DNA of 64,000 nucleotides from Prochlorococcus marinus str. MIT 9211 (GTDB lineage Bacteria > Cyanobacteriota > Cyanobacteriia > PCC-6307 > Cyanobiaceae), in NCBI RefSeq assembly GCF_000018585.1, contig NC_009976.1, positions 1,481,941 to 1,545,940 of the forward strand, in the 5' to 3' direction. How positions within the stretch are numbered: position 1 is the stretch's first letter; every line of letters starts with the position of its first letter. The notes beneath the pieces were generated by a model. That model was not told where the DNA came from, made no database searches, and saw only the letters and a program-made list of their open reading frames with translations. The position numbers and the translations under genes are program-made. Positions 3,806-57,480 of the stretch are shown here, piece by piece.

Positions 3806-3980
3806 ATGTAATGATCAAAATCAAAAAATTGCTGAGAAACTTACTTAATAAGCGTCAAAAGAAGTTAGTCTTGATTTATAATTAATTAATTGATGAATGT
3901 AGTTAAATATAGGCCGGAAGCATCTAATACCAATCCTTTTATAGAGTAGATCTCTCAAGAACTACTAAAACTTCTTGAAA

Positions 3981-50917: not shown

Positions 50918-52159
50918 TTAACTCCTTACTAATAATTCTAAAGCAAATTGTGCTAAAGCTGCACTTCCACCATGCGCGCCCATTCTCTTTACTCCTTGCA
51001 AAGATAACTGTTCGCGAAATGAGTCATTGCGAAGCAGCACCTCAACTGATTCGGCTAAATGTTTGGAATTTCTACAAGGAAAGACAGCTCCACCTAGCAG
51101 GCGAGCCTGACGCATTGCAAATGATTTTTTAAATTGTGGACCTTTACCTGGCAATGAAACACAAGGAGTACCAAGTCCTACTAATTGCTCAGTAGCAGTG
51201 CCTGCATTTGCAAGGCCAATCTCAGCATAAGTGGCCCACTCATGAAATTTTCCAATACCAATAAAAACCCTAAATCGATCCTTCTGCCAAAAGGTATCTA
51301 CACCTAATGAATTGTTTTGCAAACAAAATTTCGAAAAGCCTAATTTCTCTAAACATAGCTCAAGCTCATGTAGAGATGGGTCTGCCCCAGTAGTAACCAA
51401 AATTGCTAATGGTGTTGGACTTTTAATTTGCAAAGCTGCAGATATTAATCTTCGAAAATTCATCAATGCCTCTGGCATTCTACTTCCACAAAGCAATAAC
51501 AATCTTCTAAACATTAATAAGTCTTGTGGACATTCAGCTTTATGAAAACCATCCATCATTGGATTGCCTGGAGCAAAAGCCCTAATTGACTTCCGCTGTA
51601 AACCTCTAGCAGTCAACTTATCTCTAACTCCTACAAATTTACATCTTAAAGATCTCATCAAAACCCATTCCCAAGGGTCCCATTCTGAGCCTTTGCAGCG
51701 ATGATAATAATCACTCAACAAAGCCCCTGAAGATGATGTCCATGTGTAATCGCTTTTGGGAGTCCCAATAAACCCATACATACCGCCACCACTCCAGGCA
51801 AAAAACAAAGGCAACAAATCCCCAACTGCAAGAATCACTTTCCCATGTAATGCAGATCGTCTGACATACCGCCAATGCTTATAAGCAAAACAAAAGACAC
51901 CTGCAGAAATATCTCGAATCAATCCTGAAAAGCTTTGATTACTAAATCCTCCACTAGGCAAGCGAAAAGAAGGTCCTATTTTGATTAACCACTTTTCATA
52001 AACTGCCTTTTCAAAAGCCTTACCTTCTCCAACCAAAGGGAGTACCTCAAAGGTTAAGCTTGGTTCCAAGAGATGTAGAGCCTCTAAAATCCTAAGGGCT
52101 ATAAGATCTTCACCGTGTCCATTAGAAAGAACTAAAAGATCTTTGGTCGTCTGACTGAT
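50918..52159 (-). CDS. Lipid-A-disaccharide-synthase-like glycosyltransferase (LpxB-related), start uncertain
   Basis: A GT-B-fold protein of the cyanobacterial group annotated as lipid-A-disaccharide synthase-related. Core: LLVLSNGHGEDLIALRILEAL at the N-terminus, GDLLPLFFAWSGGGMYGFIGT in the middle, and donor-side AEIGLANAGTATEQLVGLGTPCVSLPGKGP (in part) near the C-terminus. The frame is open to an ATG at 52333, but codons 22-47 of that version are the antisense of a tRNA-Cys gene, so it is unlikely. Between the tRNA and the conserved core there is no ATG, GTG or TTG; an ATC at 52157-52159 stands seven codons before LLVLSN and is my tentative start. Confidence 0.82.
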   Translation of the reverse strand: MSQTTKDLLVLSNGHGEDLIALRILEALHLLEPSLTFEVLPLVGEGKAFEKAVYEKWLIKIGPSFRLPSGGFSNQSFSGLIRDISAGVFCFAYKHWRYVRRSALHGKVILAVGDLLPLFFAWSGGGMYGFIGTPKSDYTWTSSSGALLSDYYHRCKGSEWDPWEWVLMRSLRCKFVGVRDKLTARGLQRKSIRAFAPGNPMMDGFHKAECPQDLLMFRRLLLLCGSRMPEALMNFRRLISAALQIKSPTPLAILVTTGADPSLHELELCLEKLGFSKFCLQNNSLGVDTFWQKDRFRVFIGIGKFHEWATYAEIGLANAGTATEQLVGLGTPCVSLPGKGPQFKKSFAMRQARLLGGAVFPCRNSKHLAESVEVLLRNDSFREQLSLQGVKRMGAHGGSAALAQFALELLVRS

Positions 52160-52192
52160 ACGATCCCCAGAGGTAAAATCTTTATTTCCTTC

Positions 52193-52263
52193 GGCGGCAT
52201 GGCCAAGTGGTAAGGCAGAGGATTGCAAATCCTTTATCCCCAGTTCGAATCTGGGTGCCGCCT
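52193..52263 (+). tRNA. trnC-GCA: tRNA-Cys (anticodon GCA)
   Basis: Acceptor GGCGGCA pairs with TGCCGCC, discriminator T at 52263 (U73 is the cysteine identity base). D-arm GCCAAGTGGTAAGGC, anticodon loop with TTGCAAA (anticodon GCA), T-arm CCAGTTCGAATCTGG. 71 nt. It is antisense to the open frame extending upstream of the LpxB-like gene. Confidence 0.97.
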
Positions 52264-52378
52264 TCTTACCTTTCTTGAGACCGATTCCTGTAATCAGTTG
52301 CAAGAACTCAATTATTAGATCTCTTTTTCTCATAAAACGGATCTTTTCAGCCCTAAGAACTGGTCGGTAAGTACCTTG

Positions 52379-52799: not shown

Positions 52800-52864
52800 A
52801 AGGGCATCTCAATTTCTAGCAGATGCCCTTGAGTCAGGGTAATTGTTGGGGTGCATCCTGACTC
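52800..52864. ncRNA. Tandem perfect hairpins, candidate structured RNA
   Basis: AAGGGCATCT (52800-52809) pairs perfectly with AGATGCCCTT (52821-52830) around an 11-nt loop, and directly after it GAGTCAGG (52831-52838) pairs perfectly with CCTGACTC (52857-52864) around an 18-nt loop. Both orientations are possible; neither is followed by a strong T-run (ATACTTCTTTTCT on plus, TAAAAAC on minus). No known RNA family recognised. Confidence 0.5.
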
Positions 52865-53065
52865 ATACTTCTTTTCTAGGAACAATAGAAATGATCGTCA
52901 GTGAGTAAAAACTCCTGATTTTCAAGTGAATAATCCTGCTATTTTCTGAAAAATCTACATGTAAAGGATTTAATGAGTTTAAATTGCCTATTTCATAAGC
53001 CATTTGCGAAAAATTGTTCCTAATATTTTTCTTGCAGTTGAAATAGCTTTTAAAAAATTGCCAAT

Positions 53066-53123
53066 AAAAAATGGGCGCCCTCAACGAGCAGCGCCCTTAT
53101 GGACAATTGTGTGAGGAGTGTCC
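53066..53123 (-). ncRNA. yfr1-like: Yfr1-like small regulatory RNA
   Basis: Minus strand, starting at 53123: GGACA (53123-53119) pairs with TGTCC (53105-53101), and the loop holds ACTCCTCACAC (53119-53109), the 11-nt ultraconserved core of cyanobacterial Yfr1. Four bases later GGGCGC (53096-53091) pairs with GCGCCC (53078-53073), followed by A and six T (53071-53066), an intrinsic terminator. Predicted length, about 58 nt, is in the Yfr1 range (54-69 nt). Unlike canonical Yfr1, where the core is unpaired between two hairpins, here the core is in the loop of the first. Yfr1 controls porin mRNAs through the CUCC stretch in studied strains. Confidence 0.72.
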
Positions 53124-53129
53124 TTTATC

Positions 53130-53135
53130 ACTATA
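53130..53135 (-). promoter_or_regulatory. -10 box of the Yfr1-like RNA
   Basis: TATAGT on the minus strand; its last base at 53130 is exactly -7 relative to a start at 53123 (GGACAC). A weak -35 candidate TTGGGA lies 19 bases upstream. The fit of box and predicted first stem base supports a real transcription unit. Confidence 0.6.
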
Positions 53136-53486: not shown

Positions 53487-53618
53487 ATGTCGAAAATTAA
53501 ATTTCAGCCTCAAGACAATCTCTATGGTCTTTTTGCTGTAGTTGTTATCTCTGCTTGCATCATTGCTTCACTAGGCGCTCTGCTCGGATATGAGAAAGTA
53601 TTCTTTCCATTTAGCTGA
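53487..53618 (+). CDS. Small single-span membrane protein, 43 residues
   Basis: Translates as MSKIKFQPQDNLYGLFAVVV and continues with a hydrophobic span ISACIIASLGALLG, ending YEKVFFPFS. The polar N-terminus, single helix and aromatic end resemble small photosystem or NDH-1 subunits, but it matches none that I know (not PsbX, PsbY, PsaM, PetN or an Hli protein). It stands alone, with 300 bp upstream for a promoter. The coding look (codon use, clean membrane topology) argues for a real gene. Confidence 0.65.
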   Translation: MSKIKFQPQDNLYGLFAVVVISACIIASLGALLGYEKVFFPFS

Positions 53619-53975: not shown

Positions 53976-54602
53976 TTATCTATCATCCGAATTACTCACT
54001 ATTGGAACAACACTTTGGGAGGGCAAGTCAACTATCTGGACATGTGTTGAATCCTTTTCCGATCTTTTTGGAGATTCTTGTTCTTCATTAACCAATGCAT
54101 CTTCTTTTGAGCAAGCTTCCAAAGCCTCCCGAAGCAGGGAATCAAAAGTTGCACCAGGCAATCTATGACGAGCAATCTCTAAAAATGTTCTGGGTAAAGA
54201 TTCGGTTGCAGCATCTTTAAGCGCAGGGTTATTACTCCGATGATCCTGCTCATCTTCAATAGCTCGAAGAAATCTCAGTGTTACTTCATGTTTGGTAGAC
54301 GCCTTGATCAAAGTGTCATTATCTTTAGATTGATTATCAGGGTCAGCTTCTAAATCATTAATTCGTCTTTCAAGGCTCGAAAGGACCTCCTCAGCCTCCT
54401 TAGATATATGAGCTAACTGACCATCAGACAAATTAGGCAAGTCAGCCACATAAACCTTGCCGTGATCTCTTAATGTTAAAAAAGTTGGTCGGGGGCCTTG
54501 CCGATTATCAATATTGGCAAAATTTGCCAATGGACGCCTTGGAGGAACAGGTCCAGCTGAACTACGTCTACGGGTTAACCTCTGCTGATTTTCAAAAGGC
54601 AT
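53976..54602 (-). CDS. Conserved hypothetical protein, acidic, 208 residues
   Basis: The start is basic and proline-rich (RLTRRRSSAGPVPPRRPLANF), then comes FLTLRDHGKVYVADLPNLSDGQLAHI and a helical, coiled-coil-prone region (SKEAEEVLSSLERRINDLEAD), followed by FLEIARHRLPGATFDSLLREALE (in part) and an acidic Ser/Glu tail. No enzymatic motif. The layout suggests a scaffold or interaction protein peculiar to marine picocyanobacteria; this is inference. It lies downstream of purM by 151 bp on the same strand. Confidence 0.7.
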   Translation of the reverse strand: MPFENQQRLTRRRSSAGPVPPRRPLANFANIDNRQGPRPTFLTLRDHGKVYVADLPNLSDGQLAHISKEAEEVLSSLERRINDLEADPDNQSKDNDTLIKASTKHEVTLRFLRAIEDEQDHRSNNPALKDAATESLPRTFLEIARHRLPGATFDSLLREALEACSKEDALVNEEQESPKRSEKDSTHVQIVDLPSQSVVPIVSNSDDR

Positions 54603-55926: not shown

Positions 55927-57480
55927 ATGGTAAACATCCCCATCCTTAAAACAACAAAAGAACTTGAGCTTTGGCATCAGGAACAAAAAGCAGAAATTTA
56001 TTTTGTTCCAACAATGGGAGCCCTGCATGAAGGTCATAGCAAACTCATCCAGTCTGCAAATGCCATCAAAAAAGATAGGCCTGGCGTGATTCTGGTCAGC
56101 ATTTTTATCAATCCCCTACAATTTGGACTAAATGAAGATTTTGAAAAATATCCACGTGCATTAGATCAAGATGCCAGCCTGGCTTATGCAGCTGGTGCCA
56201 ATGCTATCTGGGCACCTGATTATGAAGACGTGTTCCCTGGAGGTGCTAAGTCACACTTCCAAATAAAGGTCCCTGAAACACTTCAATCTCAGTTATGTGG
56301 AGCATCCAGAAAAGGCCATTTTGATGGTGTAGCCACTGTAATAATAAGACTTTTACAATTTACAAGGCCTAAAATTATTTTTCTTGGTGAAAAAGATTGG
56401 CAGCAATTAGTCATTATTCGTCAACTAATCAATGATCTCGGGATCACAACCAAAGTTCAAGGGGTGCCTACTGCCAGGGATCAGAATGGACTTGCGTTCA
56501 GTTCAAGGAATAGTTACTTAAAGCAAAATGATGTTTGCAAAGCTATTAGCTTGCCCAAGACCCTGATGCAGGCAGCAAAAGACTTTAAAAGGCAAAAATC
56601 TATTAATGTAAGAAATATAGAATCTTCTTTAGAAAAAAATGGTTTAGAAGTTGAATATGTAGAAACTGTCGACCCAAAGTTCCTAACTTCTATTAATCAT
56701 GCTAAAAATTTATCCTTACTTGCTGCAGCCGTCCGTTGTGGAGAGACACGTTTAATAGATCACGTTTTTTTAATGTCACGCAATCCAATTGTTGCCATAG
56801 ATGGACCTGCAGGGGCTGGCAAAAGCACAGTTACTCGAGCATTTGCAAAGAAGCTTGGCCTTCTTTATTTAGACACAGGTGCAATGTATAGAGCTGTTAC
56901 CTGGCTGATCATCAAAAAAGGAATAGATCTTAAAGATGATGAAGGCCTCTCACAATCATTAAAAGAATTAAACCTAGAATTCAAGGTCTCTCAATTAGAA
57001 GAGCAAAATGTTTTTCTTAATGGAAAAAATATCACTAAAGAAATTCGTTCCCCAGAGATTACAGAAAAAGTGCCTTTAGTTGCATCTAAAAGTATTGTAA
57101 GGAAAATACTAACAATCCAACAAAAGGCATTAGGTAAAGACGGAGGACTTGTTGCCGAAGGGAGAGACATTGGTACTACTGTTTTCCCTGATGCTGAGTT
57201 AAAAGTTTTTCTTACAGCAAGTCCAAAAGAAAGAGCAAAAAGGCGATCAATAGACCTTAAGAATAAAGGATTTACTGTCCCTAATTTATTAGACTTAGAG
57301 AAGCAAATTAAAGAGCGTGATCAAATAGATAGTAGTAGAAAAATTGCACCTCTTTTAAAATCAGAAGAAGCGATAGAGTTGGTTACTGATGGAATGAGTA
57401 TAGAAGAAGTAATTGATTCTTTAGTAAAGATGTTTCGTTTGGAAATTCCTGAAGAGGTGTGGCCTACCCCTATTCTCTAA
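55927..57480 (+). CDS. panC/cmk: Bifunctional pantoate-beta-alanine ligase / cytidylate kinase
   Basis: 517 residues in two enzymes. PanC (about 1-280): FVPTMGALHEGHSKLI (HIGH-like), FINPLQFGLNEDFEKYPR, FLGEKDWQQLVIIRQL and SSRNSYL, making pantothenate for CoA. Cmk (about 283-510): VAIDGPAGAGKSTVTRAFAKKLG, YLDTGAMYRAVTW, EGRDIGTTVFPDAELKVFLTA, and KERDQIDSSRKIAPL, phosphorylating CMP/dCMP. The fusion is characteristic of cyanobacteria and both active sites appear intact. The 3' end overlaps the convergent phosphatase gene by 11 bp. Confidence 0.97.
   Translation: MVNIPILKTTKELELWHQEQKAEIYFVPTMGALHEGHSKLIQSANAIKKDRPGVILVSIFINPLQFGLNEDFEKYPRALDQDASLAYAAGANAIWAPDYEDVFPGGAKSHFQIKVPETLQSQLCGASRKGHFDGVATVIIRLLQFTRPKIIFLGEKDWQQLVIIRQLINDLGITTKVQGVPTARDQNGLAFSSRNSYLKQNDVCKAISLPKTLMQAAKDFKRQKSINVRNIESSLEKNGLEVEYVETVDPKFLTSINHAKNLSLLAAAVRCGETRLIDHVFLMSRNPIVAIDGPAGAGKSTVTRAFAKKLGLLYLDTGAMYRAVTWLIIKKGIDLKDDEGLSQSLKELNLEFKVSQLEEQNVFLNGKNITKEIRSPEITEKVPLVASKSIVRKILTIQQKALGKDGGLVAEGRDIGTTVFPDAELKVFLTASPKERAKRRSIDLKNKGFTVPNLLDLEKQIKERDQIDSSRKIAPLLKSEEAIELVTDGMSIEEVIDSLVKMFRLEIPEEVWPTPIL

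Follow-up and report, generated by a model that had tools for sequence, protein, structure and literature searches.

Introduction

The 11-nt core ACUCCUCACAC is common to two small RNAs of cyanobacteria, Yfr1 and Yfr10. In Yfr1, which is nearly universal in cyanobacteria, the core lies in an unpaired stretch of 16 to 20 nt between two stem-loops, and in picocyanobacteria the gene is located between guaB and trxA. Yfr1 acts on two porin mRNAs in MED4 (PMC6974561). Its absence from strains SS120 and MIT9211 has already been reported and has been a standing puzzle since 2007. In the Yfr10 family, the Yfr1 motif is held instead in a closed hairpin loop, which is the published hallmark of the family (PMC6778093, PMC2518516); the family is otherwise poorly conserved, and its synteny is stated not to be kept across the members. 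The arrangement in which Yfr10 lies upstream of Yfr2 is published for high-light strains and hence does not define the family (PMC6778093). Members of the Yfr2 family were pulled down with Yfr10, which has targets in common with Yfr1; in MED4, the pairing of Yfr10 with Yfr2 and with the shared target ppa, whose binding is lost in UCCU mutants, has been published (PMC6778093). The Yfr10 family was detected by Northern blot in SS120 (PMC6778093), and a 2019 paper proposed Yfr10 as a stand-in for Yfr1 in that strain.

The window analyzed in this study is a stretch of 64,000 nt from the genome of Prochlorococcus marinus MIT9211. Its minus strand carries, at 53066 to 53123, what is very probably a real gene, one of this known kind and in its usual position.

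Elements and fold of the RNA gene

The predicted RNA is 58 nt long, and the minus strand at 53066 to 53135 is composed of TATAGT-GATAAA-GGACACUCCUCACACAAUUGUCC-AUAA-GGGCGCUGCUCGUUGAGGGCGCCC-A-UUUUUU. The -10 box TATAGT (53130 to 53135) takes positions -12 to -7 if position +1 is 53123, and GGTATAG of this box is kept in eight of nine aligned genomes; a simple sigma-70 scan did not report the box and gave no -35 match at the RNA gene. Hairpin 1 (53101 to 53123) has a 5-bp stem, GGACA/UGUCC, with arms at 53123-53119 and 53105-53101, and a 13-nt loop, CUCCUCACACAAU. The core, at 53119-53109 on the minus strand, reads ACTCCTCACAC and is exact. Its first A forms the last pair of stem 1, so that 10 of the 11 core bases are within the loop. 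Hairpin 2 (53073 to 53096) is an intrinsic terminator with the stem GGGCGCU.CUC/GAGGGCGCCC, followed by a U6 tail (six T; 53066 to 53071). The minimum free energy fold consists of exactly these two hairpins and has an energy of -21.1 kcal/mol; relative to dinucleotide shuffles, z is -3.46. The box, the GGACA/TGTCC hairpin, and the terminator with six T are thus all present as described in the first-pass annotation, which had also placed the full core in the loop; the core is exact and loop-held, except for the paired first A.

Genomic neighborhood

The RNA gene is flanked by two conserved open reading frames (ORFs), both of which lie outside the RNA: a 43-aa ORF on the plus strand (53487 to 53618), for which no Pfam match was found, and, on the other side, a 471-aa ORF on the minus strand (50918 to 52333), whose start region is overlapped by a tRNA-Cys gene. 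In genera g1, g17, and g11, the RNA is found in the same neighborhood, beside the 471-aa and 43-aa ORFs and with purM further on, and therefore it has not been relocated within the clade. The hairpins and core are kept at this locus in nine genomes, where the RNA is present besides MIT9211 in G001, AG-402-G22, SS120 (G012), G066, G093, G067, G018, and G094. The SS120 RNA differs by only a few bases, and the window RNA is probably its ortholog. The place, which had been called unexpected, is accordingly the usual one in these genera, SS120 included, and the alignment of other low-light strains that had been suggested as a check bears out the conservation of the locus. The term "purM-downstream" used for it is loose; the end of purM is about 1.6 kb from the RNA, and two ORFs (53976-54602 and 53487-53618) intervene.

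Spread and covariation of the core-in-loop RNA

When the retrieved sites are compared, the core is seen to occur in two distinct types of RNA. The first is Yfr1, with a stem-loop, the core in a linker, and a GCCCGA..UCGGGC terminator; the second has the core in the loop and the terminator GGGCGCUnCUCGnUGAGGGCGCC. A covariance model of the second type, R1, was built from 13 sequences and scores the window RNA at 87 bits, a value that is not independent because the window sequence is itself among the 13; in 344 kb of this genome, the next match is no better than E 0.3. Within the family, R1 has matches in 120 of the 400 genomes, spread over 32 of the 59 genera, and many of these matches, e.g., those in genera g18 and g56, are weak, near E 0.005. 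The RNA is multicopy in several single-cell Prochlorococcus genomes (L071, L086, and L067; G022 and G079), with up to seven R1 matches in G022. Two pattern matches in viral contigs raised a phage origin, which was rejected since neither is backed by R1, and pattern matches in haloarchaea, actinobacteria, and other noncyanobacteria are about as numerous as chance predicts.

Both helices covary. Among 67 distinct sequences, compensatory changes are found in 8 of the 15 pairs and in 67 cells, with 98.2% of cells paired; the shuffles gave 10 cells changed on both sides, none of 500 shuffles was as good, and slid partners fail, although the alignment was fitted to R1, which favors a positive outcome. 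In hairpin 1, four of the five pairs are changed on both sides across these sequences, and 98.8% of the cells are paired.

Comparison with Yfr10

The window RNA shares with Yfr10 (RF02362) the exact core in the single-stranded loop of a 5' hairpin, here atop a covarying stem, and the terminator that comes next. The closed loop, which had been taken as a structural departure, is thus the hallmark of the family. Complementarity to the 5' motif of Yfr2 is also present, as a 9-nt perfect complement in MIT9211 Yfr2. On the other hand, the stem is 5 bp rather than the 8 bp of the Rfam consensus, the terminator is a different one, the length is about 58 nt against 78 nt, and RF02362 scores the window RNA at 17.8 bits, under the gathering cutoff of 43; a scan of the window with Rfam at gathering level returned tRNAs only. 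The MIT9211 gene is not beside Yfr2, which is near 1.239 Mb, the RNA being at 1.535 Mb. One low-light-type copy, in G066, does lie about 90 nt directly upstream of a Yfr2 gene, as in high-light strains (L177:3963-4026 and 3807-3872). Because the published structural description applies and the present Rfam model does not, we name the RNA Yfr10-like, a low-light subfamily. The low-light type is not covered by the Rfam model and might be entered in Rfam as a family of its own.

Although R1 is made of low-light sequences, its best match in each of three high-light-type genomes examined is exactly the Rfam-Yfr10 site, at weak scores of about 27 to 30 bits; given the weakness of these matches, a shared ancestry of the low-light and high-light types is no more than likely. 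MIT9313 (G072) has strong R1 matches, and Yfr104 of this strain is published as a carrier of the Yfr1 motif besides Yfr1 (PMC6778093); the link of any one match to Yfr104 is putative. SS120 has two core-bearing loci, and the counterpart of the window locus (L178:4002-4065) may be the one behind the Northern signal published for that strain.

Absence of Yfr1 from the clade

The window RNA has in common with Yfr1 (RF01116) the 11-nt core and complementarity to a word of the same type in porin leaders. It is different in that the core is in a closed loop and not, according to the fold, in a single-stranded stretch separating two stem-loops, and in that the gene is not between guaB and trxA. These two genes are at 1.035 Mb in MIT9211, with an empty spacer. 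A search with the Rfam Yfr1 model, which the first-pass annotation had put forward as a check, gives 13 bits for the window RNA, under the cutoff of 38.

The Rfam model matches 337 of 400 family genomes, and the match in MIT9313 falls exactly on the published coordinates. It gives no match in any of the 19 g1, g11, and g17 genomes that carry the Yfr10-like RNA, and no match passing E 0.01 in the genus of MIT9211. In the six Yfr1-less genomes whose guaB-trxA spacer was read, neither the core nor the Yfr1 terminator is present in it. In a GuaB tree, the seven Yfr1-less rows form one group (support, 99/94) next to the sister genus g4, in which both RNAs are present. A single clade, comprising MIT9211, SS120, and relatives, lacks Yfr1 and keeps the Yfr10-like RNA, and the simplest reading is that Yfr1 was lost once. 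The first-pass annotation is thereby upheld in that a low-light strain lacking Yfr1 has a small RNA gene bearing the Yfr1 core. The single-clade absence and the porin leader sites described below are both beyond what we found published.

Complementarity to porin leaders and Yfr2

A word complementary to the loop, GTGAGGA (GUGAGGA in RNA), is located 5 to 8 nt before the start codon in eight of nine OprB-type porin genes from four genomes of the clade, MIT9211, G001, SS120, and G066. This is a count of sites rather than of independent events, as the two porins of MIT9211 are nearly identical copies and the nine genes are all related. Five of the eight leaders carry the longer 9-mer GTGTGAGGA, and the ninth porin has TGTGTGAG. 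Among 332 control genes drawn from 344 kb of the MIT9211 genome, GTGAGGA is found at the same place in none and GAGGA in 26. Other pairing sites were sought in the window, where sequences complementary to the core are no commoner than chance predicts. At about 1.131-1.134 Mb of MIT9211 (L193 and L194), two OprB-type porin genes lie in tandem, and their nearly identical leaders contain GTGTGAGGA.

Yfr2 was located with RF01701 (Cyano-1), whose matches coincide with published Yfr2 genes; the SS120 match overlaps the published yfr2 gene of that strain. The 5' start of MIT9211 Yfr2 is GUGAGGAGU, the exact complement of the loop sequence ACUCCUCAC. Cofolding of the window RNA with Yfr2 yields a gain of -8.7 kcal/mol, against -1.7 kcal/mol in shuffles, of which 1 in 200 was as good.

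Alternative interpretations

The first-pass annotation had proposed a relocated or convergent Yfr1-type RNA acting as the functional equivalent of the missing one; the role of stand-in is plausible, and with the core in the loop being a Yfr10 trait, neither relocation nor convergence finds support. A true Yfr1 that moved here and now has its core enclosed by a hairpin would account for the identical core in a genome lacking a normal Yfr1. This is very improbable, however, since the two RNAs coexist as separate genes in genomes outside the clade (e.g., G005, G033, G053, and G072), the sister genus g4 included, and the window RNA has neither a 5' stem-loop ahead of the core nor a Yfr1 terminator, in addition to its score of 13 bits. 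Chance gain of the core by an unrelated terminator-ended RNA is scarcely credible either. The exact 11-mer occurs once in the 1.69-Mb genome (1,688,963 bases), where about 0.5 occurrences are expected, and the word read backwards likewise gives one match; the 11-mer by itself is not above chance and proves nothing, and members of Yfr10 are described as loosely conserved. What places the RNA above chance is its conservation at the same locus, the R1 score, and covariation unequaled in any shuffle, and what is kept in many genera with compensatory changes is the whole 65-nt model, beyond the core alone.

The strong terminator, with purM and a 208-aa ORF upstream on the same strand, could also be taken as simply the end of a minus-strand transcript, without a separate small RNA. 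We consider this highly unlikely, given that the -10 box is conserved, the first hairpin covaries, a plus-strand ORF intervenes, and Yfr10 is seen on Northern blots of SS120 (PMC6778093). The alternative that deserves more attention is that the RNA is a Yfr10-like small RNA that pairs mainly with Yfr2 and with mRNAs of metabolism, such as ppa, atpA, and csoS in MED4. The targets of MED4 Yfr10 are mostly metabolic (PMC6778093), and complementarity to Yfr2 is strong; the porin leader sites could then be relics from before the loss of Yfr1, or they could be kept only as Shine-Dalgarno sites for ribosome binding. GTGAGGA is nevertheless kept across diverged genera and absent before the 332 other starts, which argues against a mere Shine-Dalgarno preference, and we regard this alternative as unlikely.

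Proposed function

The interpretation that we consider probable is that the locus encodes a Yfr10-like small RNA that acts in trans. This RNA, the ortholog of that in SS120, would repress porins through its loop, have its availability set by Yfr2, and probably replace the lost Yfr1. If transcribed in MIT9211 as predicted, the RNA would present CUCCUCACAC in a loop closed by a short stem, with the intrinsic terminator after it. The loop would pair with the Shine-Dalgarno region of porin mRNAs, GUGUGAGGA, and pairing at this position would most likely block their translation. Yfr2, with its perfectly complementary 5' end, may titrate or buffer the RNA and so set its availability. With Yfr1 lost in the clade, the Yfr10-like RNA would probably keep Yfr1-type control of porins alive.

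A further step, that after a single loss of Yfr1 in one low-light clade the Yfr10-type RNA was left as the only one with the core and assumed control of the porin regulon, with target sites kept under selection, is offered tentatively, as a possibility to which we would give slightly less than even weight. If true, it would represent a natural replacement of one small RNA by another through a shared seed. We extend the stand-in proposal made for SS120 to the clade and add a defined target site. The proposal becomes testable through the locus, its conservation where Yfr1 is lacking, and the porin sites that have been kept.

Neighboring elements

Downstream of the RNA, at a distance of about 200 nt, a second conserved structured element (z = -5.3) is located at 52801-52865 of the minus strand. 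It comprises a hairpin, GAGTCAGG..CCTGACTC, with the conserved loop GCACCCCAAC, and then a hairpin, AAGGGCATCT..AGATGCCCTT, and one stem shows a compensatory change among three sequences. The exact pattern is found in 3 of 201 genomes, all three of this genus. The T-run is poor in MIT9211 and the strand is uncertain; the element is possibly a new small RNA. In the same window, the 517-aa ORF at 55927-57480 appears by eye to be a pantoate ligase fused to a cytidylate kinase.
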